DNA of 64,000 nt from assembly GCA_033065855.1 (NCBI GenBank), contig JAVXUO010000523.1:1-64000 (forward strand), read 5' to 3'. Both the position numbers and the translations under genes were made by a program. Position 1 is the stretch's first letter. Each line of letters starts with the position of its first letter. The notes under the pieces are model-generated. The model saw only the letters and a list, made by a program, of their open reading frames with translations. It was not told the DNA's origin and searched no databases. Origin of the DNA: Escallonia rubra. Taxonomy: Eukaryota; Streptophyta; Magnoliopsida; Escalloniales; Escalloniaceae. Positions 1 through 21,700 of the stretch are shown here, piece after piece.

Positions 1-165
1 TAATTGTTGCATTGAATATCTCATTTGACGGGCCTTCTACTTACGCTTGCCATGTGTCAAACTCGGAGAGTACCGATAAGGATGGCAATATAGAGTGCCT
101 CTCTCCATCTTTGATTTAACTCATCCCGCCCCACCTCATCCCCTTTTCAATTATATCCAACCCTA
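1..165. repeat. Dispersed repeat, copy 1 (mate at 27999-28165)
   Basis: This segment recurs in the same orientation at 27999-28165 with about ten differences, including the phrases TTTGACGGGCCTTCT and CTCGGAGAGTACCG. The two copies end at the same place (ATCCAACC) and then diverge into telomere-like DNA here and into unrelated sequence there. The left boundary is cut by the window edge. No coding potential was seen. It could be part of a transposon or a segmental duplication; the family is not recognised. Confidence 0.75.
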
Positions 166-412
166 AACCCTGAATCCTCAACCCTCAACCTCAACCTCTG
201 AACCCTGACCCCTGAACCCCCGAACCCCAAACCCCAAACTACCCAGACCCTGAACCCCCGACCATGACCCCAAACCCCAAAACCCCGACCCTGAACCCGA
301 CCCCGACCCCAAACCCCCTAACCCCGAACCCGAGCCCCCACCTCGTCCTCTGAACCCCCGAACCCTTAAACCCTAAAATCCAAAACGCCAAACCTCGAAA
401 CCCTAAACCCTA
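166..412. repeat. Degenerate interstitial telomere-like repeat
   Basis: About 250 bases are built from variants of CCCTAAA (AACCCTAAACCC at both edges; CCCTGAA, CCCCGAA and CCCCAAA in between). The plant telomere unit is CCCTAAA, so this is an interstitial, decayed telomeric-type tract on the C-rich strand. It has no gene. Confidence 0.75.
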
Positions 413-808
413 TTGGATTAAGAAACCGTGCTGGAACTTTAACTAATTTCTCATTCCACATTTTATCTATGGCACTTGCTTAGCCAAAAAAACTAGAGCA
501 AGGTAATACTTACGACCACTTATTTGCTTTGCATTTATTAAATACAAAAAACTAATAACCAATTCTTCTTTCGCGTTTCCTTGCAATATTGTTCAAAGAT
601 GATATGAACAAAATTGTGGTGGAAGACAACTTCCACAGCTTCCAATGCGTTTTGATAAACTCAAGAGTTTGTTTCTTGATCTTTTTCCTATTTTGGTATT
701 TTCGTATAGCTTGTGCTTCTGTGCAAATTAGGCTCAGTTGTGGCTAGTTGACCTGTATGATGGGTTTGTCATCCTCTCTGGGCTTTGGTTGTAACTTGAT
801 GTATGTTT

Positions 809-811
<3 letters not shown>

Positions 812-861
<50 letters not shown>
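812..861. repeat. (TA)n microsatellite, left flank of the large MULE
   Basis: A pure TA tract of about 50 bases ends exactly where the GGGAGCTGATCC terminal repeat starts. Equivalent TA tracts lie at 13484-13519 and 14978-15029, so both TIR elements sit in what was one TA microsatellite. Target-site duplications cannot be resolved because any TA duplication is hidden in the tract. Confidence 0.95.
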
Positions 862-863
<2 letters not shown>

Positions 864-1147
864 GAGCTGATCCGTTGAGAGCGTTAGCAAAATAGGAGAA
901 GTTGCAAGCGCGATCTGACCGTCCATCCTGAGAGATGGACGGTCCAGATCGCGCCTTTTTCGAAAACTGTCAGTCGTCCGCCATACAGTATCGCGGACGG
1001 GATTTTTTACCTTTTTGCCCCTCCGCGCCTGTCCGCTACACTGTATGGCGGAGGACATTAAAGTCCTGATGGGAGACAGCAAAAAGACGTCCGTGATACT
1101 ATGTAGCGGACGTCCCCTAGGCTGACACCTGTCAGGCCCTGTCCCGT
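862..1147. repeat. Left terminal inverted repeat of the large MULE
   Basis: The sequence from GGGAGCTGATCC to CTGTCAGGCCCTGTCCCG matches the complement of 13281-13483. It contains three copies of the GTCCGCTA/TAGCGGAC palindrome, a CTTTTTGCCCCTCCG block and a 20-bp-stem hairpin (908-954). The left copy is longer than the right because the right has lost about 100 bases, including the hairpin. Confidence 0.88.
908..954. repeat. Hairpin inside the terminal repeat
   Basis: GCGCGATCTGACCGTCCATC pairs with GATGGACGGTCCAGATCGCGC around a 6-base loop, with one bulge. The same hairpin is present in both ends of the small relative (about 13568-13612 and 14890-14934) but is deleted from the right end of this element. 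Its conservation suggests a structural or binding role in the terminus. Confidence 0.75.
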
Positions 1148-1420
1148 CGGTCCTTTTCGACAATGACGGTTATCTTGTCCTTATCTGTCACGTCAACAGT
1201 GTCCGCTATACAGTGTAGCGGACGTTATAGTCATCCGCGATACTGTATTGCGGACGTTCAATATACTTTCAAACGACAGTAACTACGACACTCTTCTCCA
1301 CTCTTTCTACTCACAAAATTTCCCAGCGGCGTTGGCAAGCAGATCGGCGCAATTCCGTCTTAAGAACACCTTTAATACCCTAAATCGATCACGTAAGTTC
1401 ACAAAATCTATACTTTTTTT

Positions 1421-1788
1421 GTTTGTAATCGATAGTTGTGATGAATATTGCGTTTTATATATGTATGTTTTTGTTCATGTGCAAGCGTTTGTAAAATCCG
1501 ATTCCGTATATGTATATATATCTATTATACATATGAGTATATATGCTAACATTGTATGCATTCTTTGCATGTGCTTGCGTTATATGTAATATGCATGTGC
1601 TAGCTTTCGTTTGTAATCGATAGTTGTGATGAATATTGCGTTTTATATATCTATGTTTTTGTTCATGTGCTAGCGTTTGTAAAATCCGATTCCGTATATG
1701 TATATATATTTATACATATGAGTACATATGCTAACATTGTATGTATCATTCATGTGCTTGCGTTATATGTATTATGCATGTGCTAGCG
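1421..1788 (+). repeat. Tandem duplication (188-bp unit, two copies) in the leader region of the PMD gene
   Basis: GTTTGTAATCGATAGTTGTG at 1421 recurs at 1609 and the two units run in parallel to about 1788. A good donor (GTAAGT at about 1392) lies upstream and an acceptor (ATTTCAG, ending at 1861) lies just before the PMD gene start. The duplication therefore probably lies inside a 5'-UTR intron. Confidence 0.7.
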
Positions 1789-1870
1789 TCGTATTTTTGC
1801 GAGCGATTATCAAAATCCAAAACGTAAAATCCAAACTGAGAAGGTTTTTCCATAATTTCAGTTGCAAAAA

Positions 1871-4800
1871 ATGGAATTTAACCCTGGACCAGAAGACCCA
1901 TCCGTGTTATACGACCAAGCCAACCATATCAGTACGCTCATATGGGATGGTGGAGTAAGATACATTATTTATCGACTTTCTTATTCTTACGAACGTTGTA
2001 TATACCGTTTGTTTTGCTTAAATTGTATTTATTAATTCGTAGGAAAGAGAACTTCTCAACACCGTAGAAGTATCTCGCGATGTCACATCGTGGAAACTGA
2101 ACACCGCCCAGAAGAGGATACTGCGTGGAATTGGGTTTGGGATTTTCACGCATGGGCAGATATTTCAACAGCTTGACCGGGCCTTGATAGGTGCCCTTGT
2201 TGAGAGGTGGAGAAGTGAAACGAATACGTTTCACTTCCCGCTCGGAGAGATGACAATTACCCTAGAAGATGTAGGGTTCATCTTAGGGTTGCCGGTGACG
2301 GGGCGGCCGGTAATTGCTCCTCCGTCAGAAGCAACGAATAAGAGAACCGCTAGGGACTTCTTAACTTCGATACCCCAGGATCAATTTAGCAGTGGTGGTA
2401 TCAAGTTGAAGTGGTTGGTAGATACCTACGGGGTTTTGCCGGAAAACTATACGGGCCGTGACCTTGTGCTGTACACACAAGCCTTCCTCTGGTGGGTGAT
2501 GGGGGCAATATTATTCCCAACGACGTCGAAGAACACGGTCAGCGTGAGATATTTACCGTTGTTGGGTAACCTGGCGGAGGTTGGAGATTATGCATGGGGT
2601 GCAGCGGTTCTTTCGTATCTGTACCGAGCATTGCACAAGGCAACGAGGCCCGACTCCAAAGCCATATGTGCATGTCTCTCGCTATTGCAGGTATATAATA
2701 CAAATCCTGTCTTTGTTATTATTTTTTTTGTTTTTGCTTTTGTTGAATCGACGATATAAATATAATTTGCCCATGTTCTCAGGTGTGGTCTTATGAACAC
2801 CTTGCTCCCGGTGCACCAACGCGTAGGGATGGAACCGATAGAGTGTGGCCTCGGTTGCGTGCTTGGGAGTACAGCCGGAAGAATAGCCACTACCGCAGGA
2901 GAGTCGATCCCCATCACAACATCACGTACTATCGAGGGGAGTTCGACCGCCTATCTCCGGGCCAATTGCGTTGGGCACCGTACATACGTTTGGCGCGACG
3001 GGTAGAAGAGTCGTTCGTCTTCACGCTCTCCGGGTTGCAGCGCACACCCCTCATCCACTTCGAGGTCGCAGAGTGGCAGCTGCCAGACCGAGCAATGCGC
3101 CATTTTGAGTTGGAGCAGGGTTTGCCAGCCGGTGCCCCAGATATGAGGGTTAACAGGGACCCACCGGATGTCGGGCGGTTTGGCAAGGCCAATGCGCAAG
3201 AATTGTGCGCGGCCGAACTAGAGCTCTGGACTTCTTGGCAGGACACACTGGCGGCCATCGTCTCGGAGCCGGACCCCGTTATCAGCATCGAACAGTACGA
3301 TGAGTGGTACTACCGCATCACGCGGAGGAGAGTAGCCCCAGTGAACTTTGAACGCGGGGAGAGGTATGCGCCTAGGGGTCAGATCGACGAGCGTATGGCA
3401 TACAATCTCGTAAGTTGCCCAACTAGTCTGACTTGTCTTGAATGTGTTGAATATAAATGTCTGATTAAAGTTACTTATTTGTTATCTCTTTGGATGTAGG
3501 TTAATGCCTCGCTTGCATTCTTCCAGAAGTTGAGTGAGCGGAAGGATCTGATGAGCGCAATGGGCGAGGATCTTCGCCAACAGGCTGCTGCACTGGCTTT
3601 AGGCTGCGGGAATTTTGTGCGACAAGCATCGGGACAGTCTTCGGTCGACAGCCCGGGAATGGGTTATACGGGCGTCAGCCCGTATAACGTTGATCCCTCC
3701 GGGCAAGCTTCAGGGGTGAGCCAGGGAGTTGGTGGTCCCTCTGTACCGGGGATGGGACATGCTCAAGCGTCGTGGGCCGATTACAGCGGCCCGACCTTCA
3801 ATTTGGGCCGATTACATTCAAGTCACGCAAGACTGGCCTTACGGTTTCAACGAGGCACTGCCCATTGTCCCGTGGGCGGGACCACTTGGCGGCCCCGAAG
3901 GGCAATATCAGCCGGCGGAAGAAATGGCCGGCGAGCAATATCAGCCGGCCGGGGCCCCCGAAGGCGATTATCAGCCGGCCGGGGCCCCCGAAGGGGATTA
4001 TCAGCCGGCCGATCCGTTGGTTGGAGGCCAATTTCTTCCGTTGCTCTTGCCCCCTGGCGGAGGGCAAGAGCAACCGGTCGACCCCCGAGGGCAATATCCG
4101 AAAGGGCATCCAGCCAGGCCCCTGAAGCCGCATAAACATGACCTAATCCGAGCCCGTTATTTTAGCGGGCCCCCCCAGACGGAGCGTCGTATGACGTGGA
4201 TCACCCGCAGGGCTTGGATTACAATGCCTCGTGGAGAGAACTGTCCTCGCTGGCGCCGAGAATTTGGTTAGACAACTTTGTCATCTCGCACTACGTGCAA
4301 ATTCTGAGGCAAAGGGGTCGGGAGCAGCCTAACTACGGTCCGCGCGTTTTTATCCTCGATGCTTACTTTCATGGCATGCTAGTACAAGAGTGGGGCGACT
4401 GGGACAAGGCGAGGAAGCAGGCGAGAAAGGGAAACGTCCAGCTCCAGTGGAGACCGTCCGCTAACCTACAAGCATATCTTGCTAGGGATAGTCCAGTGAG
4501 CGCAAGTGTGGCGGACGTGTTTCTAATCCCATGTATAGTGAATGCCCACTGGTTCTTGGTTTGCTATGAACCGGTATCGAAGACCGTATCAGTCCTCGAC
4601 AGTATCTACGATGATACCCCCGTGATGGGTGTGATTGAAATGTACCGAGGCTTAGGCCAGTTGGATGCCATGGTAAGATCATGTTTACTTCTTATTGTAA
4701 CTTGCATATTGTAGAACTGATTAATCTTATTATGTTTGCTATGTTTAATGTTTAATGCTTAATGTTTAATGCTTATTATGTTTCTCGCAGAATCTATTTG

Positions 4801-5094
4801 CTGCCATGGTCAATAAGAAGCGTCGAGAGAGCCCATCGGCCGATACGACGCTTGTTCTCGAGGAGTAGGCCCAAGCAACTTAATTCCTCGGACTGCGGCG
4901 TCTTCGTCTGCATGTACATGGATTACATCTGTCGGTCTGAGAGCCTCAAGAAGACCGTCTGGAGCCAAGAATGCATAGACTGCTTTAGGTATAGGATGGC
5001 TTGGCAAATTATCAATGGCCGGCCTAGAGCTATTAGATTTATTGTAAATCCGTGTAACGAGGGGGATCCCGCAGGGGCTGAGGGCCCCAATTGA
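1871..5094 (+). CDS. Transposon-borne plant mobile domain (PMD) - Ulp1/C48 protease fusion gene, partly frameshifted
   Basis: Five exons can be placed with GT-AG introns: 1871-1954, 2043-2690, 2783-3409, 3500-4672 and 4791-5094. Exons 1-3 encode an uninterrupted PMD (MAIN/aminotransferase-like family), with VERWRSETNTFHFPLGE and LEDVGFILGLPVTGRPV. Exon 4 continues into a low-complexity linker with a YQPAGAPEGD repeat, then a C48 (Ulp1) protease domain with the catalytic His in NAHWFLVCYE and Asp in VSVLDS. Exon 5 carries the Gln and Cys box, RPKQLNSSDCGVFVC. Reading the linker requires a +1 shift near 3785-3804 and a compensating shift at a C7 run near 4171-4176. Exon 5 also needs a shift, or a different acceptor, to reach the Cys box past a TAG at 4866. 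C48 proteases cleave SUMO or ubiquitin-like conjugates. The PMD in host MAIN/MAIL1 proteins acts in silencing and genome stability. PMD is intact; the joined protein is probably not made as read. Confidence 0.85.
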
Positions 5095-5159
5095 CAATGT
5101 TTGCTTATAATAACATTATATTAACTTTTTTAATTGTCCTTATCGTTGAATCTTATCGT

Positions 5160-5265
5160 TGAATGCGATTGATGATTTCATTTGTGTTGACTGAGATGTG
5201 ATCGGTGTTGAATGCGATTGGTGATTTTATTTGTGTTGACTGAGATGTGATCGGTGTTGAATGCG
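5160..5265 (+). repeat. Short tandem repeat after the PMD-Ulp1 gene
   Basis: The phrase GAATGCGATTGATGATTT...GACTGAGATGTGATCGGTGTT occurs twice in a row with a period of about 53 bases, and a third copy begins. It lies in the presumed 3' region of the PMD-Ulp1 gene. No gene is seen here. Confidence 0.7.
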
Positions 5266-5384
5266 ATTGATTTGATTCACTGATATCGTTGTGTTGTTGA
5301 TCTGAGTGTTTGATTTGTTCTGTGTGATTTGCTTTGTCCAGGGGGAAACTAAGTGTAAAAACCAAGTGAGACTGTGTTTCTGCT

Positions 5385-6865
5385 TGACTGTCCGCTATAT
5401 AGTATAGCGGACATAGATAGGGCCAAAAAAAAAAACTAAGTGTTGGGGACAAGACCTGCTGCTTGACTGTCCGCTATATAGTATAGCGGACATAAATAGG
5501 GCCAAAAAAACCGAAGTGTTGGGGACAAGACCTTCTGCTTGACTGTCCGCTATATAGTATAACGGACATAGATAGGGCCAAAAAAAAACTAAGTGTTGGG
5601 GACTCTTCCTTCTGCTTGACTGTCCGCTATATAGTATAGCGGACATAGATAGGGCCAAAAAAAAACTAAGTGTTCTTGACTCTTCCTTCTGCTTGACTAT
5701 CCGCTATATAGTATAGCGGACATAGATAGGGCCGAAAAAAACTGAAGTGTTGGGGACAAGACCTTCTGCTTGACTATCCGCTATATAGTATAGCGGACAT
5801 AGAGAGGGCCAAAAAAAAAAAAACTAAGTGTTGGGGACTCTTCCTTCTGCTTGACTGTCCGCTATATAGTATAGCGGACATAGATAGGGCCAAAAAAAAC
5901 TAAGTGTTGGGGACAAGACCTTCTGCTTGACTGTCCGCTATATAGTATAGCGGACATAGATAGGGCCGAAAAAAACTAAGTGTTGGGGACAAGACCTTCT
6001 GCTTGACTGTCCGCTATATAGTATAGCGGACATAGATAGGGCCCAAAAAAAACTAAGTGTTGGAGACAAGACCTTCTGCTTGACTGTCCGCTATATCGTC
6101 TCGCAGACATAGATAGGGCCGAAAAAAAACTAAGTGTTTGGCAGTCTACATTCTGCTTGACTGTCCGCTATATAGTATAGCAGACATAGATAGGGCCGAA
6201 AAAAAACTAAGTGTTGGGGACTCTTCCTTCTGCTTGAAGGTCCGCTATATCGTATCGCGGACATAGATAGGGCCAAAAAAAACTAAGTGCTGGGGACAAG
6301 ACCTTCTGCTTGACTAAGTGTAGCTATATAGTATAGCGAACATAGATAGGGCCAAAAAAAACTATGTGTCGCTATATAGTATAGCGGACATAGATAGGGC
6401 CATAAACTAAGTGTCACTATATAGTATAGCGGACATAGATAGGGCAAAAAAAAAACTAAGTATTGGGGACCTTCCTTCTGCTTGAGAGTCCGCTATATCA
6501 TCTCGCGGACATAGATAGGGCAAAAAAAAACTAAGTGTTGGGGACTCTTCATTTGCTTGAATGTCCGCTATATAGTACAGCGGACATAGATAGGGTCGAA
6601 AAAAACTAACTGTTGGGGACAAGACCTTCTGTTTGACTGTTTGCTATATAGTATAGCGAACATAGATAGGGCCGAAAAACTAAGTATTGGGGACAAGACC
6701 AAAAAAACTAAGTGTCGCTATAGTATAGCGGACATAGATAGGCCAAAAAAAACTGTATTGGGGACCCTTCCTTCTGCTTGAATGTCTGCTTTACTATATA
6801 GCTGATATGCATAGGACAAAAGAAAAACCAAGGTTTGGAAGGTCCGCTTTATAGTATGGCGGATG
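5385..6865. repeat. Array of about 20 palindrome-bearing tandem repeats
   Basis: Units of about 75-80 bases each carry one imperfect palindrome (GTCCGCTA, spacer TATAGTA or similar, TAGCGGAC), followed by ATAGATAGGGCC, a short A-run and AACTAAGTGTTGGGGACAAG. About 20 copies can be counted; the last few are shortened or degenerate (CGTCTCGCAGAC and similar). The same palindrome occurs in the terminal repeats and near 8490-8750 and 9720-10165. The arms vary less than the spacer, which is what a dyad-symmetric binding site looks like. Apparent ORFs across the array are by-products of the repeat. Confidence 0.92.
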
Positions 6866-6991
6866 TAGTTACAAACATAAATTCCCAACATTTTACATGC
6901 TTCAAAAGACGGGATTCGCTAATTAGAATGATATGTGGATAAGTGTCAGTTGGAATGAAATCCTAACATGCAGTAGGAGGAGATATATATA

Positions 6992-7426
6992 TCACTCTTC
7001 ATTTGACATATACTCATCAGATAAGTACTGATCATTGGTTAAAATATTGTTTCTCTCGTTTGATTTGAGGTGCCTCCCACTAGCCTCGGCCATTTCTTCC
7101 GCAAGTTGAAGCATGTAAAATTGTTTTCTACGCAGCAACATCCGGTTATTCTCCATACGAATTCGGCGCACAGCTTTCTTACACTGCTTAACATTACGCC
7201 TCGACATACTAAGTGAACGACGTTGCGGCACAGGTGCCCTCAGCGTGGTGAGATCTTGGTGTAGTGCTTCTGATTCCTTAACTCGATATGCCCACTCTCT
7301 CCGTAAACCGCAATAATACTCTCTCGGATCCGTGTACTTCACTTCTTTGTAGTCGTCGTTCCTTTCACACAACAACCACACAGTCTCACGTCCCCGCAGA
7401 CTAGAACTCCCAGGAACTCCTGCCAT
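6992..7426 (-). CDS. Small basic protein with acidic tail, paralogue A of a divergent gene pair
   Basis: A single-exon frame of 144 residues. It aligns along most of its length with the protein at 7813-8244: LRREWAYR against LRAEWSYR, PVPQRRSLSM against PIPRQKAINM, and RIRMENNRM against RIREENNRM. The middle (about residues 75-115) is rich in Arg and Lys and could form a helix or coiled coil; the C-terminus is acidic (SDEYMSNEE). No known domain is recognised. A TATA-like CATATATAAATAAG lies about 40 bases upstream (7464-7476). The gene sits between the palindrome array and its partner and is transcribed toward the array. Two intact frames related at protein level argue for real genes. A DNA-binding role at the palindrome is conjecture. 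Confidence 0.72.
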   Translation of the reverse strand: MAGVPGSSSLRGRETVWLLCERNDDYKEVKYTDPREYYCGLRREWAYRVKESEALHQDLTTLRAPVPQRRSLSMSRRNVKQCKKAVRRIRMENNRMLLRRKQFYMLQLAEEMAEASGRHLKSNERNNILTNDQYLSDEYMSNEE

Positions 7427-7812
7427 TTAACTTAGGCGGTTCTAATGCGATGAGCATGGCTAACATATATAAATAAGCCAACACACACATACACAATATA
7501 TTGGTGTGATAGCTACACAATAGTCTGCCCATCTCTGGTGACAAGACAAGTCTCTGGACATTGAAAATGACAATAGTTGGAGACAATAGCATGCTCGTGT
7601 CATAAAGTTGACAAGTCTTTGGTGACAAGACAAGTTTCTTTGGTGACAAGACAAGTCTCTGGTTCTATTGCAGGGGCTTGTCACATCTCATAAAGTTGAA
7701 CCTGTAGCATCTCATAAAGTGGTCCCGTTTCAAGGTATATATAAGTACATGCATTGCACGAAGGGCAAAGGGCATAGAGTGATATACTCCAAGTTTCATA
7801 ACAACTCTGGAA
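7427..7812. promoter_or_regulatory. Shared bidirectional promoter region of the small gene pair
   Basis: A 386-base interval separates two divergent start codons. It holds a TATA-like motif for each side: CATATATAAATAAG (7464-7476, read leftward) and GGTATATATAAGTAC (7734-7748, read rightward, about 70 bases before the ATG at 7813). Between them are repeated GGTGACAAGACAAGT and TCTCATAAAGT phrases that could be binding sites. Confidence 0.6.
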
Positions 7813-8244
7813 ATGTCATATACTCCACGAGATATTTTTGAAGCAATGGGTCGTTACTGGGCTGGAGAAGATGAATTTCAGTATTCTTTGCGTCCAAGTT
7901 TGCGTTACTCATCAAGCTATGTTAATACATTACGTGCAGAATGGTCTTATCGGATGAATGAATATGAGGTCTTAGTAGCTGATTCACGGCGCATGAATAT
8001 ACCCATACCTCGACAAAAGGCAATCAACATGCCTCGAATTACGCACATGGAGCTTGAAAGGGCACTGCATCGAATACGTGAAGAAAATAATAGAATGAGA
8101 GTTCGTCAAAGTAGGCATAACTTACGTCGTATGGCACGTGATGCACATGAAGATGGCAACAACAATGAAGCACAAGTATACTGGAACATGAGCTTCGAAC
8201 TAGGATCTGTTTCCGATGCTCCAGTTTCAGATGAAGATGACTGA
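7813..8244 (+). CDS. Small basic protein with acidic tail, paralogue B of a divergent gene pair
   Basis: A single-exon frame of 143 residues starting MSYTPRDIFEAMGRYW. It is paralogous to the product of 6992-7426 (shared EW(A/S)YR, RIR-x-ENNRM and an acidic end, here PVSDEDD). The Arg-rich region RVRQSRHNLRRMARD follows the ENNRM motif, so a basic helix ending in an acidic tail is the common plan. It is transcribed away from the array, with a TATA-like motif 70 bases upstream. Its stop codon lies only 21 bases before the first arm of a 133-bp inverted repeat, so its transcript may end in a long hairpin. No known family is recognised, so no function is assigned. Confidence 0.72.
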   Translation: MSYTPRDIFEAMGRYWAGEDEFQYSLRPSLRYSSSYVNTLRAEWSYRMNEYEVLVADSRRMNIPIPRQKAINMPRITHMELERALHRIREENNRMRVRQSRHNLRRMARDAHEDGNNNEAQVYWNMSFELGSVSDAPVSDEDD

Positions 8245-8265
8245 AGATCGAGTTCTTCTAAGGCT

Positions 8266-8398
8266 ATAAGGCCTCCGCTTAGGCCGGGGTTCGGGAAGGT
8301 CGGAACTAAGTGTCTGGTTCGTGCCAACCATTTTCTGGTCCAAGTTGCAGACAATGATCTGCAGCACTATGACGTGAGATCCTCAGCTGTGCACCTTT
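8266..8398. repeat. Inverted repeat, arm 1 (mate 8601-8733)
   Basis: This 133-base arm is the reverse complement of 8601-8733 with five mismatches (96% identity). The loop of 202 bases (8399-8600) holds two more copies of the element's palindrome. No target-site duplication flanks the pair. It follows paralogue B directly. Confidence 0.93.
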
Positions 8399-8600
8399 TG
8401 TTTGTGTGTGGGTTTCCGTGGTGCGTGGATGTATTACGATAATACTTCCTCGCTAATCATGTACTGTGTTAGAGACTTTCTTTCTGCGGTGCCGTCCGCT
8501 TTATAGTATGGCGGATCTGGATAGAAACAGAAAAAACTTTCTGCTGTGCCATCTACTATATAGTATAGCGGACATCCCCGCAGAATACATGACCAAGCAG

Positions 8601-8733
8601 AAAGGTGCACAACTGAGGATCTTACGTCATAGTGGTGCAGATCATTGTCTGCAACTTGGACCAGAAAATGGTTGGCACGAACCAGACACTTAGTTCCAAC
8701 CTTCCCGAACCCTGGCCTAAGCGGAGGCCTTAT
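8601..8733. repeat. Inverted repeat, arm 2 (mate 8266-8398)
   Basis: Reverse-complement partner of 8266-8398, equal in length with five mismatches. It is followed immediately by another GTCCGCTATATAGTA half-palindrome. Together the arms could fold RNA into a stem of about 130 bp. Confidence 0.93.
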
Positions 8734-8761
8734 GTCCGCTATATAGTAGAGCTAGACGTTG

Positions 8762-8975
8762 TAGCGTAATGCAGTTTTAATAAATTGGCGCCCGAAGACT
8801 TGTTTTAGCGACATTGTAGCATAATGTTGTTTTAATAAATTGGCGCTCGAAGACTTGTTTTGCCAACATAATCAACAATCTCAATATCGATAAACAATAA
8901 ATAACGTACGATTCACAATCAACGATCTCAATATCAATAAATAACGTACGATTCACAATCAACGATCTCAATATA
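8762..8975. repeat. Short tandem repeats
   Basis: TTTTAATAAATTGGCGC(C/T)CGAAGACTTGTTTT occurs twice (about 8774 and 8829). It is followed by repeats of CAATCAACGATCTCAATATC-A-ATAAATAACGTACG with a period of about 43 bases. No gene is seen in the stretch 8734-9070. Confidence 0.7.
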
Positions 8976-9072
8976 TCGAGGGAATCTCAAACGGCACAAT
9001 TAAGCGAGAAAAAATTTGGAAACATAATGAATAAGAACATAAATTCTTTTATTAATAATAAATTAGGGAACA

Positions 9073-9529
9073 TTGGGGAAAAGAATTTTTTTCACAAGCG
9101 CTCCGATCAAAGATTACAACTTGAAAATCCCACCACCCAAGGTGTTCAAACACTACAAAGTTCCCGAGTTCGAGGCCATGCTGGCGCACGAAGACGTTCC
9201 AACCCTTTGCGAATTGCTTTTTTTGGGGTCAGCCGGGCTTCAGCTTGATTTCAACCTGCCATGCCCCCTTGCGGCTATATAATCTTGCACTGTCATGAAT
9301 TGGTGTAAATTGAATGGTCAAGGCTTCCGGTATGTCTTAACAAACACAATACAAAAAATAGGTTAGTTTTTAACCAAAAGATCAAACTTTTAACACACGA
9401 AAATACAGAGAAAGAGGGATGGCCTACAAGTTCATTCTCAAATCCCGGCATCATGACTTTGAAAAAGTGTTTGCCTGCTAGGTGCAAGTTGCCAATAAAA
9501 TCGTAGGTGGTCTCCGATCCAGAAGCCAT
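9073..9529 (-). pseudogene. Captured B3-domain (REM-type) gene fragment
   Basis: On the minus strand, 9529-9428 encodes MASGSETTYDF, then HFFKVMMPGFENEL, followed by a GTAGGC donor. After an intron, about 9334-9073 encodes a run beginning IPEAL, with KGAWQVEIKLKPG, then KGWNVFVRQHGLELGNFVVF and VVIFDRSACEK. These are characteristic B3 DNA-binding domain strands of the plant REM/VRN1 group. A TGA (read at 9231-9229) interrupts the domain after LKPG, and no second B3 domain or C-terminus follows. The fragment lies in the MULE interior with its intron retained, which fits DNA-level gene capture (Pack-MULE style). Function as a transcription factor is unlikely. Confidence 0.8.
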
Positions 9530-9714
9530 CGAGGTCGGCGTTGAGGGGAGGACGGTAGTGTCGCCGGAGTTGTGGGTCACCGGAGATGTGGGTCGCCGTA
9601 GATGGGGTGGCGGCTTGGGTTTTAGATGTCCGAGACAGAGAGAAGAGTGTCCTCAGCGGACTGATAACAGCTAATTGCCCGATTTGATTAATATATATAA
9701 TAGGATAGAGTTTT

Positions 9715-10165
9715 CCATTACATTGTATATCGGACATAAAAGAAAACCAAAATTTTTTCTGCGATGCCGTCCGCTACATTATATAGCGGACATAGAAGAA
9801 GACCAAAAGTTTTTCTGCGATGCCGTCCGCTACATTATATAGCGGACATAGAAGAAAACCAAAAGTTTTTTCTGCGACGCCGTCCGCTACATTATATAGC
9901 GGACATAGAAGAAAACCAAAATTTTTTCTGCGATGCCGTCCGCTACATTATATAGCGGACATGCCGTCCGCTACATTATATAGCGGACATAGAAGAAGAC
10001 CAAAAGTTCAGAGCGATGACGTCCGCTACATTGTATAGCGGACATAAATGAAGACCAAAAGTTTTTTGCCATTACGTCCGCTTCATTGTATAGGGGACTT
10101 AAAATAACCCCAAAAAATTAGGGCTCTGCATATCCGTCCGCTTCATTGTATAACGGACGGGGCTG
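9715..10165. repeat. Second palindrome array (about 9 copies)
   Basis: Units of about 57 bases each hold GTCCGCTA-CATTATA-TAGCGGAC followed by ATAGAAGAAGACCAAAAG and a T-run. Two copies sit back to back at 9936-9985. Copies toward 10165 are diverged (CTTCATTGTATAACGGAC). This array lies just beyond the 3' end of the transposase gene. Confidence 0.9.
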
Positions 10166-10294
10166 ACAAAGATAAAAAAAAAAAAAAAACTTAAGACTTT
10201 AGATTTGATTTGATGGCCTCTCATAGGTCCATCAGATAAAAAATTCCAGTATTCGGTCGAAAAATTATTACAAATGTCAAACTTATACAAAAAA

Positions 10295-12589
10295 TTAAAG
10301 GTCCACTGCAGCTTGTTCGTCCTCATCTTCGGCGTCATCTTCTTCCCCGTCTTGCAAACCCCCTGAACTTATCCCCAGTGCCTTGTAATGGTTCCGCTTG
10401 TCGTGGTCGGTCATTTTGTTGCACAATGCACACCTTCGCAGCTTTTTAGGTTGAGTTGCCGTTTTAATAAAGCTTTTCTTCCGCGTAAATGTCTTGCGGC
10501 CTTTCGTTTGCGATATAATTGGATCCAACGGCCGGATATCATTGTCGTCTTCCTCCCCCGGCTCGTCATCTTCTGACCCCGTCGTAGGCTCGGTGTCAAC
10601 TAGATTGGTGACGGAAGCTGCTTCCAACTGGTCGACGATGGGCTCTTGCTGCTGAGCTACCTCGATGAGATATGTATATCCGACCATTGTAGCAGCACCC
10701 TTTACGGACAAACGGGCGAACATCGTCACCAGATGATTATACCATAACGTCTCTGATTCTTCAAAGTCAGTAAACGGGTGCTCCGGAAAGGCAATGGTCC
10801 CATGCAACCTGTTTGCACCTTTCGTCCACCGTGGCAAGACGTATTTATCGGAGATTGTCCTGATATTCTTCTGGATGAAAAACCGCAGAATGTGTCTACA
10901 CAGGATGCCATGGAACTCAAACTTCTTGCAAACACATGTCACCGAGTCCGTCAATGTGTCGTGGCTCACCGTATACATTCTGCGCAGCTTCTCAGGAACG
11001 AGGTCATTCACGAGCGAATAAACCTTGTACTCACGCGTAGACTTTTCTGCCACCTTGTTTATACAGTACCGTCCCGATTTCTGCAGCTCTACTTGGTATA
11101 ACAAGAAGATCTCCTTCGTATAGACTTTGGCACCGTTCAGCTCCAGCGGGGTCTCAAGCAACCTTCTCCTCTGTTTGTACGTGGTTGCAAAGTCTGCAGC
11201 CCTTTCTTTCACGAACAACGATGCAACCGCTTTCTGTGCGGATGTGACGAAACTCTTCAAATTGGTAGTTGTACCCACGTAACTATCGAACATGGCATTC
11301 ATAGATTCACTCCTGCCCGTCGTTTTCATGCCCGCAGAAAAATGCCTCATCGTGTAAACGCCAATCCATTGCTCTTTGAGCTCGTACAAGTGCTGGAGCC
11401 ACCCGTTGTCTTGCAATGAGTAATCCTCAACAAGCTTTTCCCACCTCTCCTCAAATTCCTCAATCGTTAACGACTTGCTAACGCACGTGTCAAAATCCTG
11501 TTTAAAGTCTGGAAACTTTGCGTACACGTGATGCAAACGTTCGGGGTATTTGTTGCTTATGTGCCAAGTGCACAAGTTGTGTCGAGTATCTGGGAAGACG
11601 GTGGCAATAGCCTTCTTCATTGCCAAATCTTGATCGGTGATGATTACGTTGGGTGCTTTGAAGTTCATGGCTTCCAGCCACGCCCTAAACAACCATTCAA
11701 AAGAACTCTCGCTCTCGTCCCTTAACAAGGCGAACCCGAACAGGATGGAGTGATAATGATGATTGACCCCCGTGAAAGGGGCAAACGGCATCGAGTACTT
11801 GTTGGTACGGTATGTGGTGTCGAAAGTCACGACATCCCCAAAATGCTTATAAGCAAGCCTCGAACGACCGTCGACCCAAAAAATTGTGCTAACTCGATGC
11901 TCGTCGTCAAGTTTATAATCGAAGGTAAACTGCGGGTCCTCCATCTGTATCCGCTTCAATAGGCTCATTGTGGCTTGAGCATCATTGAGGTCATACGCGG
12001 CTCGTCTATGGGTTCGGACCGCTTTACGAACGTCTGTCGTGTTAAAGTTTAAATTTTGAATTCCCACATCCTGTTCAGCAAGAACATTAATCATGTCGGT
12101 ACGTCCTAGCCGCGCATCGCTCATTGTGTGAATTAGGCTCCTCGCGACCTTACCCATCTTCATGTGTTGATGCATCTGACTCACCTTAGAAGGGGTTACT
12201 AACGGGTGATTGTGTGCCAGTTCCAAGCTGCTAATAAGCCAATGATCTTGCTTGGCTTTATAGCTCACGAACATCTTGACCTGGCAATTCGTTCGCGCAA
12301 AGAAGTCCCGTCTTCTGCGCGAATATCCTATTTCGCCATCACTGTCATCGTTGCATACGCGTGACTCATTTTGCACTGGGTTTCTACCCCTATGGCACTC
12401 GTATAAGCGAGAGCATATCTTTTTCGTTACGTTGCTCGTTCTTGAAGTCTTTATTCTAATGCCAAATCCAACCCTCAATGAATACGCTCGGAAACATTCT
12501 CCAGCTTCCTCCAATGTTTGAAAGGTTCGTCCTAGATACGGATCACTAGCATCTACGGGGGTGTTGGAGCTCGACACGAAATCAGACAT
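10295..12589 (-). CDS. FAR1/FHY3-type Mutator-like transposase, intact
   Basis: An uninterrupted single-exon frame of 764 residues. A FAR1-type DNA-binding domain (about residues 16-125; GRTFQTLEEAGECFRAYSL and ELAHNHPL, with paired Cys/His) is followed by a MULE DDE transposase core. The core has VVTFDTTYRTN (first Asp), then VIITDQDLAMKKAI (second Asp) and TWHISNKYPERL. A SWIM zinc finger follows near residues 550-575 (CVCKKFEFHGILCRHIL). The tail holds a CALCNKMTDHDKRNH mini-finger and an acidic stretch. This order is that of FAR1/FHY3-derived and Jittery-type MULE transposases, so it should catalyse excision and insertion of this element and its small relative. It is transcribed inward from the right end. 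Confidence 0.93.
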   Translation of the reverse strand: MSDFVSSSNTPVDASDPYLGRTFQTLEEAGECFRAYSLRVGFGIRIKTSRTSNVTKKICSRLYECHRGRNPVQNESRVCNDDSDGEIGYSRRRRDFFARTNCQVKMFVSYKAKQDHWLISSLELAHNHPLVTPSKVSQMHQHMKMGKVARSLIHTMSDARLGRTDMINVLAEQDVGIQNLNFNTTDVRKAVRTHRRAAYDLNDAQATMSLLKRIQMEDPQFTFDYKLDDEHRVSTIFWVDGRSRLAYKHFGDVVTFDTTYRTNKYSMPFAPFTGVNHHYHSILFGFALLRDESESSFEWLFRAWLEAMNFKAPNVIITDQDLAMKKAIATVFPDTRHNLCTWHISNKYPERLHHVYAKFPDFKQDFDTCVSKSLTIEEFEERWEKLVEDYSLQDNGWLQHLYELKEQWIGVYTMRHFSAGMKTTGRSESMNAMFDSYVGTTTNLKSFVTSAQKAVASLFVKERAADFATTYKQRRRLLETPLELNGAKVYTKEIFLLYQVELQKSGRYCINKVAEKSTREYKVYSLVNDLVPEKLRRMYTVSHDTLTDSVTCVCKKFEFHGILCRHILRFFIQKNIRTISDKYVLPRWTKGANRLHGTIAFPEHPFTDFEESETLWYNHLVTMFARLSVKGAATMVGYTYLIEVAQQQEPIVDQLEAASVTNLVDTEPTTGSEDDEPGEEDDNDIRPLDPIISQTKGRKTFTRKKSFIKTATQPKKLRRCALCNKMTDHDKRNHYKALGISSGGLQDGEEDDAEDEDEQAAVDL

Positions 12590-13280
12590 TGTGAAACAAG
12601 ACCTATGTAGAAATATAGACTACGCTTAACAATCAAATGACATTTTCAACTGAAAATATTACCTAAAAATTATCTTGACGAATAGACCAATTTAAGATGA
12701 CAAATATACCATATACATAATTTCAAAAGTCTCCAATTTTGCTAATTATAGATTTATTGAACATAACAAATTAAAATTACTAAGATAAATAGACAAATTC
12801 ATCATGTCAAAATACAACAAACGTATCTCAAAAAAACCGAATTTAAATAGGATAGATGTGCCGAAGTTAGCGCCCTCAAAAAAATCAAAATTAACTACAA
12901 TAAACTTCTTTAAAGTTAACAAATTAATTTCTAGAACATCACAAGTTGATGAATAGAGTGGCAAATTTCTAGAATATCATCAAAAATCTATACTTTTTTG
13001 TCCAAAAAAAATATATATACTTCATCAGTCAATCTGCCCAGAAAATATTTGAGATCAGAAATTAACCTTGCTTGATTGAAGATTGAAGCAAGTGTTACTC
13101 GAAGCTTGAGGGCAGCCGAAAAAGGAAGCAAGTGAATCCGAAGGAAAAGAAAATTTTGCCGAAAGAGCTGAGAATTAAGGAACCCTGGGGTATATGGGAA
13201 GTAATGTCCGTGATACTGTATAGAGGAAATTATTCCCGACACTGACATGTGCAGAAATAAAGACCTAACATCCCTTTCAA
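12590..13280. other. AT-rich subterminal region, no gene
   Basis: Between the transposase start and the right terminal repeat lies AT-rich DNA with no supported coding frame. It is the likely promoter and leader of the transposase. One diverged palindrome (TGTCCGTGATACTGTATAGAGGA at about 13205) is present. Confidence 0.6.
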
Positions 13281-13481
13281 CGGGACAGGCCCTGACAGGT
13301 GTCAGCCTAGGGTACGTCCGCTACACAGTATCGCAGACGTCTTTTTGTTGTCTCCCATCAGGACTTTAATGTCCTCCGCCATACAGTGTAGCGGACAGGT
13401 GCGGAGGGGCAAAAAGGTAAAAAAATCCCGTCCACGATATGCAACTTCTCCTATTTTGCTAGCGCTCTCAACGGATCAGCT

Positions 13482-13483
<2 letters not shown>
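13281..13483. repeat. Right terminal inverted repeat of the large MULE
   Basis: Complement of the left terminal repeat, from CGGGACAGGCCCTGACAGG to CAACGGATCAGCTCC. About 100 bases corresponding to the left hairpin and adjoining palindrome are missing: the sequence jumps from AAAAATCCCGTCCACGATA to GCAACTTCTCC. The outermost 43 bases are nearly identical to the left end. Confidence 0.88.

Positions 13484-13519
<36 letters not shown>
13484..13519. repeat. (TA)n tract between the two TIR elements
   Basis: Thirty-six bases of TA lie between the right end of the 12.6-kb element and the left end of the 1.46-kb element. Both elements use this tract as a flank. Confidence 0.95.
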
Positions 13520-13521
<2 letters not shown>

Positions 13522-14975
13522 GAGCTGATCCCTTGACAGCGTAGGCAAAATAGGATATCTTGCCAGCGCGATCTGGCCGTCCATCCCGAAGGGATGGACG
13601 GTCCAGATCACTTTTATTTGCGGCGCTGTCAGTCGTCCGCTACACTGTGTAGCGGACGGATCTTTTACCTTTTTGCCCCTCCGCCCCGTCCGCTACACTG
13701 TATCGCGGACGGACTTTTTTAATTTTTTTTAAGCTCGTCCGCTACATTATGTAGCGGACAAGTTTTTCTGATAGAAATGACAGTTTGTTAGGTCCGCTAC
13801 ATTATGTAGCGGACAAGTTTTCAGTCCATTTTTCTCATTCTTCCATTAATTTTCCTGACATCTCTGTCTCTCTTTATCATCAATTTATGACTCTTTGACT
13901 CTTACTCTGTCTCTCTCCTTCCCATCTCTTTTCTCTGCCTCACCGAATTGAGCTTCAGCGACTCGAGCTGCTTGAACTGGCGCCAGAGACGAGCCGGCGT
14001 CACCGTGTAGCACAGCGCGATTCCGGCGTCATCGACTCGCGTTCCGCTCCTCCATTCGCGGGAGAGTAACGACGACCACGCTGCGAAGCTGAATGGAAAA
14101 AAGAAATTCAGTAGAAGAGTCAAAGAGACGGAGGACCGAATTCCTAGGGGATCGAGTCTGAAAATTCCTGGGGATCAAGTTCCTTGGCCCGATTCTGGCC
14201 GGTAGTAACCGGTGACCGGATCTGGCACCCAAGGCGTGTAGGCGTTCGAAGTTCTGTCATTTTGCTCCTCGTAACTTCTGTCATTTTGCTCCTTTAGAGG
14301 TTTTGAAGTGTTGCTGATCTCCGCGAGTTCCCGACAATGGGACGGTAGCTGGGCCCCACTATGCCTTGTTTCCTAAAGTGTCGCTGGATTTTCCATGGAA
14401 CCCAGAAAATGGAATGCAGAGGTTTTGAGAGGAAGAGTAGAAGCAGAACTGGCGGGAGGGAGGGAAGATGCACCAACTTTTATAGGGACCACATGGTTTG
14501 ATTGTGTCCGGCGAGCTAATTTGAGACGAGGCCGTCGTCATCTCCGCCGGTTGGATCATGGAGAGGTGCAGCGGCATGAGATTATATGTATATGTAAGAG
14601 AAAGGACAGTGAGAGAAACGAGAGAGAGAGAGAGAGATGTCATAAGGACAATGAGAGAAAGGACCGAAAAAGAGAAAGAAAAAGTATTGTCTGTCTACTT
14701 GTCCGCCGTAACAGGCTGCCATTGATGGTGGAAAAACGTGTCCGCTACCTAATGTAGCGGACGAGCTTAAAAAAAATTAAAAAAGTCCCGCTACACAGTG
14801 TAGCGGACGGGGCGGAGGGGCAAAAAGGTAAAAAGATCCGTCCGCTACACAGTGTAGCGGACGACTGACAGCGCCGCAAAAAAAAGTGATCGGGACCGTC
14901 CATCCCTTCGGGATGGACGGCCAGATCGCGCTGGCAAGATATCCTATTTTGCCTACGCTGTCAAGGGATCAGCTC

Positions 14976-14977
<2 letters not shown>
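13520..14977. mobile_element. Non-autonomous MULE relative (1.46 kb) sharing the terminal repeat
   Basis: Both ends read GGGAGCTGATCCCTTGACAG inward and continue as terminal inverted repeats of about 240 bases. These contain the same hairpin and the same GTCCGCTA/TAGCGGAC palindromes as the 12.6-kb element. The interior (about 13820-14735) has no transposase. It holds GC-rich, gene-like sequence and a GA-rich stretch. A minus-strand frame of 73 codons (13902-14123) could be a captured gene piece, but it is not recognised. The element depends on transposase supplied in trans, plausibly from its neighbour. Confidence 0.9.
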
Positions 14978-18700: not shown

Positions 18701-21700
18701 AAACACCGGGTATGGGCTGTCCTAGCCGTCAAGGCCACACATCAACCTCCATATGTCTCCTATTCAATTAAACCATCTCTAGGACCTCTAGTTTGTGTTG
18801 GCCAGTCAGTTAAAGAGTACAAATTAGAGACGTAAAGCACATTACCATGTTGAAAATAAACGCCATCCTCCCCGGAAGGAACATATCATTTGGCTTAATG
18901 CCAGTATCGGGCTTGACTATCCACTGATAAGCTGACTGCCACGTGAAATATAAAATAAAAGCATGTTAGTAACTCCACGCTACAAATTGTTAAACTTTAT
19001 AGAGTATTCTCAATTTGTGGATGGACCTTAGCAGTTGCAGTGCGGAATGACAATGCTTTTTCTTCCTTGGATGCTCTGTTGGGGGAAGTATGTTAGTGAA
19101 TGAAATTTACAAGTATGAAAGCGAAACGTACATGTTAGTTTAACAAAAAGGTTGGTAATAGCAGTCTCACATCGGCTTGAAAGTAGTTGTAAAATTTATT
19201 ATTGACTGGAAGAGCAACAGGAACAAAGAAAGAAGTATCCCCTCAAGAAGGTGTTCAATTTAGCAATGTGGTTCATTAAGAATTGACAAAAGGCATTAGT
19301 TTGACTAATGCACGTATCTTCAATGAACTTTAAGCCTGCTTGTGTATATTTTCTCTAACCTTATAGGAGGACCTATCGTACTAAAACACTCAGTTCGACT
19401 AATGCACATACAATTCTATGAACCCCGCACCTTGAAAATAATTTTACAGTAGATTGCTAGGAACTGAAACAATGCACAACCAAAAAGGTTCCACCCAAGC
19501 AACTATCTCTTGTGGATAAACTGCTAATTTATAGCTATAAAAATATTTTCTATTTTCTAAGTAATTTGTAGCTATAATTTGCAACGATCTATCTTTATTT
19601 TACAATTACTTACATGGACATGATTCAAATAAAAGCTGTAAACTTGTGTTCGTATGGAAATCCTTATGGTTTTCTATTTTGGTTGCTGAAAACCATCACT
19701 CTGTTTTCTATTTGGAAACCAAACTTGGAAATGTTTGTAAACAGGCAAAACATTTGTGTCTCTCTTTTAAGGAGGTAGAATGTCGATCTCCTTCATCAAC
19801 AGCAATAAAGGTCTGTTCCACTCCAATAACTTAGGGTCTTTCTTCTCACGTTTTCTTCACATCTCCACCATAGCTATAATCTGCAACAATCTATCTTTAC
19901 TTTGCAATTACTTTCATGGAAAACGATTAAAATAATAGGTGTAAACTTGTCTTTGCATGGAAATCCTAGTGGTTTTTTATTTTGGTTGCTGAAAACCATC
20001 ACTCTATTTTCTATCTGGAAACCAAACTTGGAAGTGTTTGTAAACAGGTTATAACATTTGTGCCTCTCTTTTAAGGAGGTAGAATGTTGAACTCCTTCAG
20101 CAAAATAAATTGGAGTCTGTTTCACTCCAATGAATTACAGTTTTTCTTCTCATGTTTTCTTCACATCTCCACCATACCTCATGCTGCTGTCTCCCCATCA
20201 TCACCTGATCCACCATTGCTAGCATCATCTTCTTCATCCCAACCACAAAATATACCAGCAGCCCCACCACCACCACCACCTCTAGCGCAACCAAACCCCA
20301 CAACTTCCATACACACTACCACCATACCGACAAAATGAATACAACACAAAATAAACTGGGCTTAGATCTGATCAAACGAGATATAAGGAGGGACTGTGAA
20401 GCTATACGATGATCTAAGGACGAGATAAACAGCAGATTATAGGAAGGGAAAAAAGCCAGAAGCCGTTGAATCAACCAAACTAGTTTTTGAAATAATCATA
20501 ATCAAAATCAAAAATGAAAAGCCCTGCATACAATAACATTAAGGTGATAGCATAAACGTTTAGTTGAGCAAAAACAGGGGTGGGAAGGTTAGAAGTCACA
20601 ACTATAGAAGGCTTTGGGTGGGAGCGGGAAGTAGTTGTTCTGGGACGGGAGCATCACTAGCATATAATATTCCATCAACGAACATTTGGTCATTGCTCTA
20701 GATTTTGGTGGCTGGATAGACGGTAGTGATCTGAATGCACTGGATAGACAAGCAACAAGATAGTAAATCCAATCATCTATCTGTTGCAGGCTGCTATTTC
20801 TACACGATAGACACTCAAGCCAAAAAAATTATATTGCTACGAACTCTACTCCCCCCAATTCTTTACATCTAAAAGCGGATTAGATCAGGATTCTTTGAGT
20901 TACATATTTGGTTAACTGACATGATGCAAACCCCTACGTGTAAATGCCATAAAGTTATTGATCACATCTGAGTATCTTTTTGTTCTTCAACTACCAATGA
21001 GCATATCATCAGATTTTGTAGGTTTCAATTGCTCAAAATGGTGTGTCGAAAAGAGTATATGCCACGTCAGGGAACTCGTGAATCTGCCTAATCACTTTAT
21101 TCCCCCTGCTATTGCCCAGCCTAAACTATAATTCCGATACCCTTCCCTGTCATGAGTAGCTCATTATACGAAAACTGTATCCAAACGAAACATTTTTTTT
21201 CCCGCTTGAGTTAATATTTTCTTGCCCTTTCTCTGCTTGTTCCTTTCTCCCACTGCCAGCAAACTACCCCTAGCAACCAGCAACTGTCTCATTCGAACGG
21301 AGCATTCTAAACTTGTTCAGCTTTGTTAATAAACAGCCTGTATAGTTAACTTACCAAATATAGAATACTAATTTCTAGGGAATACTAATTTCTAGGGATT
21401 CTTGTCTAGTTCCTAATATAGATCATGTAACCTGTATAAATAGTCTTCTATTCAGATCAATGAGACAGGGAATATGGGTTTATTTGCTCTCTGAATTGTT
21501 TCATGGTATCAGAGCCATCGGCTCGATTTTTCTGGGGTTTTTCTTTTGGGTTCAAGGGTTTTGTTTTTCAATACCGGAACTGATTTGGTGTCGTCACCAA
21601 CTCCGGTGACAGTTTAGTCTCACAGCCACCCCAGGGAGGTGCGTACGGTGGTTTCCGGCCAGTCCTCAAAGTTCGGTGGCTGGGTTCCCTGCGAGTGGGT

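Follow-up and report, generated by a model that had tools for sequence, protein, structure and literature searches.

The 64,000-nt window of Escallonia rubra DNA analysed here carries a large Mutator-like element (MULE) whose non-coding DNA is studded with one palindromic site, the 23-bp dyad GTCCGC-N11-GCGGAC. The dyads have a fixed geometry and class-specific letters and are better kept than their surroundings. Related elements elsewhere in the genome carry a second code on the same chassis, and this fact, which lies outside the window, is the most informative of the analysis. Our best reading of these sequences is that the palindromes would be family-specific docking sites for a homodimer of an element-encoded protein, probably either PMD-Ulp1, a VANC-like protein with a plant mobile domain (PMD), or the FAR1-domain transposase. 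We put the probability that the dyads are selected binding sites of some element-encoded protein at about 0.8.

A 23-bp dyad of constant geometry

A preliminary description of this DNA had reported one operator-like palindrome repeated about 40 times across the element and again in a small relative. Exact half-sites (GTCCGCTA-N{0,30}-TAGCGGAC) occur 18 times in the window and not once in 100 shuffles, and with up to six mismatches to GTCCGCTAYAYWRTRTAGCGGAC there are 47 copies, 40 in the large MULE and seven in the small relative, all within 976-14862; the remainder of the window holds none at that threshold. They are distributed over the left end (five at 976-1255, three of them in the terminal inverted repeat, TIR), array A (20 at 5390-6864), a cluster of three (8494-8756), array B (nine at 9713-10158), the right end (three at 13206-13396, two in the TIR) and the small relative (seven at 13635-14862). 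The copy number first given, the copies in both terminal repeats and the internal groups of about 20, three and about nine were therefore all recovered.

The same half-sites are found at 11,560 places in the 566-Mb genome vs 48 for a reversed control; with the spacer set to N{8,30} there are 116 places vs 48. The fully specified GTCCGCTAYAYWRTRTAGCGGAC occurs at 9,641 places (control 0), and dropping the inner TA raises the count to 19,857 for GTCCGC-N{2,24}-GCGGAC (control 151). Since the spacer is N11 in 50 of 50 of these places among the matches listed, the site is the 23-bp dyad GTCCGC-N11-GCGGAC.

Its interior is part of the site. In a set of 291 copies from 20 fetched loci (designated by L-numbers) and the window—299 were found at up to six mismatches and eight isolated weak ones dropped, and copies inside one array are not independent of one another—A10 is kept in 283 and T14 in 290, which places them among the best-kept positions of the whole dyad. 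Positions 9, 11, 13 and 15 change nearly always by transition (C/T or A/G; each position has 5 to 9 exceptions), 285 copies have A or T at the centre, and inner positions 4 and 8 are invariant in 25 distinct sites drawn from the 50 listed. The "spacer" is thus constrained. The earlier statement that the arms are better conserved than the spacer needs this correction.

The 20 loci, fetched around listed palindromes and including six from the odd-spacer (N{8,30}) list, represent 18 separate stretches. At least two palindromes are present in 19 of the 20 loci and one in the other, and DNA or protein matches link 19 to the large element or its small neighbour. The exception, L010, consists of about 140 bp with two short inverted arms around two palindromes, and we read it as a miniature inverted-repeat transposable element (MITE). 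L019 gave the initial impression of bearing a different motif; it turned out to be a degenerate GTCCGC element (transposase 57-82% and C48 peptidase 39-57% identical over matched pieces), with degenerate palindromes on a ~78-bp array of similar unit.

Conservation of the dyad relative to its surroundings

In the loci and the window 26 TIRs were recognised, and in 22 of them 115-121 nt separate the terminus from the first palindrome. Twenty of these TIRs were aligned, six partial or odd ones being left out. In this alignment, which is partly anchored by the palindromes and hence somewhat biased in their favour, mean pairwise identity per column is 0.82 over the outer 95 columns and 0.80 at the non-degenerate palindrome positions, vs 0.55 at the degenerate positions and 0.50 between palindromes. 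The contrast with the flanks is strong at the first three palindromes and weak at the fourth.

The arrays behave likewise. Across 11 arrays of eight elements, major-letter retention is 0.83-0.98 in the dyad core, 0.56-0.88 in left flanks and 0.54-0.74 in right flanks, the flank values being lowered somewhat by gap-free alignment on the palindrome. In each of the 11 arrays retention in the core exceeds that in both flanks, in agreement with the earlier remark that array units differ in their flanks and keep the dyad. Dyad and backbone have therefore not diverged equally, since dyad columns on average outlast the flanks in both TIRs and arrays, and these alignments support selection on the dyad. 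What had been called the signature of a protein-binding site under selection is borne out as regards selection; binding is a prediction. CpG retention in palindromes and flanks was compared over few columns (8, 7 and 5). None of 260 palindrome centres (up to three mismatches) falls inside a coding match, coding matches making up 45,780 of 207,018 bases (22%).

A second dyad class in related elements

Relatives were picked by matches to the PMD and DUF1985 profiles, not by dyad, and clan membership was decided by protein match. Three elements belong to the clan: L026/L027 (PMD 52/40%, C48 29-38%, transposase 37-66% over pieces), L028/L030 (PMD 50/41%, C48 30-37%, transposase 49%) and L029/L031 (PMD 51/43%, C48 as two short pieces, no transposase match in the stretch). 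GTCCGC dyads are absent from L026/L027 and L028. L029 has three within about 0.8 kb beside a TA run, in a stretch that matches the end of the window element at 76% and is most likely a nested small element.

All three clan elements carry CCAAT- or CCAAC-type dyads whose interior is again 11 bp. The form CCAATCGC-N11-GCGATTGG occurs three times exactly in L026/L027 and, in L028/L030, once exactly and twice with one mismatch; L029 has four exact copies of CCAACCGC-N11-GCGGTTGG. Neither type was found at two loci outside the clan, L025 (PMD 38%, without a C48 match) and L032 (DUF1985 only). Genome-wide, CCAAYCGC-N{2,26}-GCGRTTGG occurs at 3,588 places (control 1), and among the matches listed the spacer is N11 in 48 of 50, these 48 comprising 29 T/T and 19 C/C pairs. 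Mixed T/C dyads with N11 number 93 (53 + 40) vs about 1,700 expected for independent halves at the listed ratio: CCAAY dyads are nearly always homotypic. With 31 distinct CCAAY sites read on both strands, A or T stands at inner position 4 in 62 of 62 cases, at position 6 in 60 and at position 8 in 62; in the GTCCGC class the same positions are A, W and T. Outer CGC/GCG, 11 bp between them and A:T pairs at inner positions 4, 6 and 8 are thus common to both classes.

Two further loci were picked by the dyads themselves. The CCAAT dyads led to L034, an element that adjoins TA runs and contains PMD (49/40%) as well as transposase remnants. The CCAAC dyads led to L033, a 6.2-kb foldback with five dyads no more than 320 nt from each end and no match to the proteins of the window element; the foldback, at 359-6542, is nearly complete, has (TA)n runs on both sides and contains 322-bp internal tandem repeats. 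Measured from the end of the TA run, the first CCAAY dyad (up to three mismatches) begins at 44-51 nt in six of seven ends and at 35 nt in the seventh. A tree of 13 PMD sequences groups the four CCAAY elements in a single clade (support 95) and, inside it, the three CCAAT ones in another (95). In L026 (6172-7253) and L028 (5652-6553), 167-bp tandem arrays occupy the intergenic place equivalent to array A.

No earlier description of either dyad was found in the open-licence PubMed Central literature; the motif letter strings gave matches there that, among those listed, all look unrelated, by which absence of publication is not proven.

Layout of the element and its small relative

The large MULE (12.6 kb, 862-13481) is inserted in a TA microsatellite, with (AT)n runs at 812-861 and 13484-13519; TA runs also adjoin the elements on contigs C949 and C2579 and those at L033 and L034. 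The features of the large MULE and its neighbour are as follows.

862-1147, plus strand: left TIR of the large MULE, adjoining the (AT)n run at 812-861, with palindromes at 976, 1031 and 1089 and two more, 1201 and 1233, just inside
2043-3412, plus strand: PMD exons, remote homologue of DUF1985
4166-5094, plus strand: Ulp1-type peptidase C48 exons, assigned to the PMD gene by assumption; frame ambiguous at about 3700-4170
5390-6864, unstranded: array A, 20 palindromes, mostly in 75-81-bp units, between the last Ulp1 exon and s1
6995-7426, minus strand: small protein s1, 144 aa, without a Pfam family
7813-8244, plus strand: small protein s2, 143 aa, homologous to s1 (35% over 78 aa)
8494-8756, unstranded: three-palindrome cluster in and around a 133-nt inverted repeat (8266-8398 / 8601-8733)
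9713-10158, unstranded: array B, nine palindromes at mostly 55-60-bp intervals (28 bp in one pair), immediately beyond the 3' end of the transposase gene
10295-12592, minus strand: FAR1/MULE/SWIM transposase, 765 aa, single open frame
13280-13481, minus strand: right TIR of the large MULE, shorter than the left, with palindromes at 13316 and 13374 and one, 13206, just inside
13520-14977, unstranded: small relative, 196-nt inverted repeats (96%, AT run included in part), seven palindromes

The right TIR matches the left in two pieces, one of 145 nt (95%) and one of 44 nt (98%). The small relative has no match to the genes of the large MULE. In the region 3700-4170 the PMD-Ulp1 frame apparently shifts between a repeat-rich middle and the peptidase exon, and the window copy may be broken or spliced there.

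The window transposase scores 9.9e-33 for the MULE domain, 2.9e-13 for FAR1 and 3.1e-5 for SWIM; a search of solved structures returned no relative (best E 0.96). From 4,676 first-look candidates, 59 scored copies are 94-100% identical over all 765 residues, 52 of them without an internal stop, and by these sequences the family looks young and large. For s1 and s2 no Pfam or NCBIfam family scored above cut-off, and s1, the one searched against the PDB, gave a best match of just E 0.15; 150 of 150 scored genomic matches to s1 cover all 144 residues, a few of them with a stop. Both small proteins had been put forward as candidate binders of the palindrome, which is unlikely, since L009, L013/L014 and L018 lack both genes although their palindrome arrays are present.

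PMD-Ulp1 as a remote relative of VANC

The window PMD matches its profile at 8.7e-51. An exon of L028 scores 7e-46 for PMD and 1.1e-7 for DUF1985 (32.4 bits, just below the cut-off of 35.1), and an open reading frame of L032 scores 1.7e-10 for DUF1985 (above cut-off) and 1.6e-6 for PMD (28 bits, below the cut-off of 34.9), with 24% identity to the window PMD over 169 aa (E 4e-10). The two profiles match identical places at several loci, e.g. C949, C2034, C2131 and C3125. On this profile evidence PMD is homologous to DUF1985, the two forming one superfamily. VANC proteins carry DUF1985 and DUF287 in the excerpts of PMC5735166 used here, and VANC genes fused to Ulp1 (KIU) are described in those of PMC13317346. 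Judged by homology and domain order, PMD-Ulp1 is then a remote, architecture-matched relative of VANC.

Anti-silencing as the role of MULE-borne PMD proteins was a speculation of Ikeda et al. 2017 (PMC5418596, in part), which the dyads make directly testable. For the host PMD proteins MAIN and MAIL1, the sections of PMC9899485 and PMC7156037 drawn on report a link to a promoter motif named "DOWN" (CATGCAGTTT in MORC1) and give binding as unproven; this motif is unlike the window dyads.

Compared with the window copy, PMD has a ratio of nonsynonymous to synonymous substitution (dN/dS) of 0.24-0.75 in 15 of 17 finite comparisons (L020 gives 1.00 and 1.57 at dS below 0.03), the transposase one of 0.24-0.57 in the nine finite comparisons of at least 200 codons (shorter ones reach 1.31) and C48 one of 0.46-1.27. 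These values mix past selection and decay because many copies contain stops. The genome holds 5,238 first-look PMD candidates. At C922:1278226-1296817 four adjacent, single-frame, full-length PMD matches score far above the others and are perhaps host PMD genes.

Candidate readers of the dyads

We infer that the reader of the dyads is an element-encoded homodimer. PMD-Ulp1 is our tentative choice, by analogy and at somewhat less than even odds, on two grounds: motifs in non-coding arrays are what VANC proteins read, and the second class of motif maps onto a clade of the PMD tree. A PMD-Ulp1 homodimer would dock on the dyads, acting as VANC and KIU proteins do in VANDAL elements, and would coat the terminal repeats and intergenic arrays. 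This coating would keep the element's own DNA clear of silencing marks, relatives bearing another code being left untouched, and gene-less copies, down to about 140 bp, may retain dyads because they borrow the protein in trans. A wider proposal, which we advance with more reserve, is that one clan shares a self-recognition code: a CGC-N11-GCG chassis (A:T at inner positions 4, 6 and 8), symmetric letters for each sub-family (GTC, CCAAT, CCAAC) and, as reader, a co-diverging dimeric PMD-Ulp1 of the VANC superfamily, each family activating its own copies only.

Several observations weigh against PMD-Ulp1. The window PMD reaches just E 0.058 for DUF1985, and the text of PMC9899485 used here leaves PMD binding to DNA open. 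The GTCCGC elements fall outside the CCAAY clade and are not resolved as one clade (supports 29-40), and the PMD tree does not single out PMD, since the transposase diverges too; L029 offers no transposase match for comparison. Neither L026 nor L028 has the dyad in its 167-bp internal array, the dyads there lying near the element ends. C48 changes fast (dN/dS 0.46-1.27 against the window copy), and the motifs of VANC21 and VANC6 are short and not palindromic in the form in which the part of PMC5735166 drawn on prints them.

The transposase is a close rival, because the FAR1 domain binds CACGCGC and the protein dimerises, because the distances to the ends are kept, and because gene-less copies keep their dyads; we consider it a credible reader, if short of an even chance. 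A transposase dimer would bind each dyad through its FAR1 zinc-finger domain, subterminal dyads building the transposition complex and arrays being regulatory or spare. The FAR1 domain is present in both motif classes (window and L028); as far as the extracts of PMC13306707 go, the Arabidopsis one binds CACGCGC, in which CGC likewise occurs, and the MULE region takes part in dimer formation. The first dyad's distance from the terminus is class-specific in the TIRs and ends given above, and the MITE L010 is little beyond short inverted arms and two dyads. MULE TIRs contain transposase sites according to the excerpted text of PMC3310237; the MURA site given there, however, is a single motif of about 32 bp. 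The outermost 95 bp or so, conserved too, are a likelier core transposase site, and some 20 mid-element sites in a 12.6-kb element are superfluous for end recognition. A host regulatory protein, such as a repressor or a factor hijacked as enhancer, is an unlikely reader: sites do occur 5' of both outer genes as well as 3' of genes, where regulatory DNA would be expected, but the rest of the 64 kb has no copy, and a base code that differs between related families of one genome is unexplained by a single host factor.

Explanations without a binding protein fare worse. If pairing in an RNA or DNA hairpin or cruciform, not sequence, were selected, changes in the two arms should go together. Among the 291 copies, position 5 changes from G to A in one half 28 times and never in both, symmetric doubles are absent at position 8, and positions 3, 4 and 6 have 2, 2 and 1 of them. 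The symmetric exceptions, T7C/A17G in 10 copies (several from L024) and G1A/C23T in 14, speak for pairing. Changes in the half-sites are mostly independent, which argues against a hairpin and for base recognition in the GTCCGC class, and the arm sequence itself is fixed beyond what mere pairing would need. In the CCAAY class the half-sites agree at inner positions 1 and 2 more than shuffles do (reached by 55 and 35 of 5000; positions 3 and 4 by 369 and 218), whereas at position 5 they agree in 6 of 31 vs 12.4 expected. With no support from paired changes in one class and a weak, mixed result in the other, hairpin selection was set aside as very unlikely. Tandem-repeat expansion and copy amplification with a functionless dyad is most improbable. 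The arrays are tandem repeats, several of them share backbone blocks (CTAAGTGTTGG and TTTCTGC), and they look homogenised within an element, yet the dyads outlast array backbone and TIR flanks, change is restricted at positions 9-15, and related elements have a second dyad of the same N11 geometry.

Comparison with known systems

The precedent of the Arabidopsis VANDAL elements, invoked in the preliminary description, holds in part, and the remote homology of PMD to DUF1985 and the different motif of relatives put it on firmer ground than was given there. Like VANDALs, the window element is a MULE with a second gene encoding a DUF1985-superfamily domain (here the remotely homologous PMD) followed by Ulp1 as in KIU, and its non-coding tandem arrays and terminal regions carry a specific motif; the motif changes between related families (here the GTCCGC, CCAAT and CCAAC classes). 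In the excerpts of PMC5735166 used here the VANDAL motifs are YAGTATTAY for VANC21 and AGTTGTCC and AGTTGTAC for VANC6. These are short and directional, whereas the window site is a long dyad of fixed geometry. The precedent also differs in that VANDALs are called non-TIR MULEs, whereas the window element has long TIRs, in that PMD stands in place of DUF1985, and in that binding and anti-silencing are predictions for the window element.

Other plant transposons offer narrower parallels. MuTAnT of Medicago is a MULE that targets TA microsatellites, and it shares with the window element both the insertion in (TA)n and the presence of short relatives that are non-autonomous; AutoMuTAnT is set apart by its description as a single Jittery-like open reading frame, the excerpts of PMC4486113 drawn on describing no PMD-Ulp1 gene or repeated dyad. 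Maize MuDR and plant TIR MULEs have long TIRs bearing protein sites, the MuDR TIR carrying the MURA site and promoters; the parts of PMC3310237 used here do not mention dyad arrays. The window element also differs from CACTA elements in its ends, which read GGGAGCTGATCC on the left and GGAGCTGATCC on the right and are not of the CACTA type. En/Spm is a CACTA element whose subterminal repeats, with a 12-bp motif, belong to TnpA, and it resembles the window element in having a repeated subterminal site for an element-encoded regulator.

To our knowledge, self-family recognition by a transposon protein has been worked out chiefly for VANDALs. This single genome offers over 20,000 natural sites, in homotypic classes of constant geometry, on which a DNA-recognition code and its switch could be studied; the change from CCAAT to CCAAC is one symmetric base per half-site.

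Other observations in the window

Degenerate telomere-like repeats of the CCCTAAA/ACCCCGA type lie near the start of the window (158-420). A 17-bp tandem unit is common to 21363-21398 and 26238-26273, 4.9 kb apart, which suggests local duplication.

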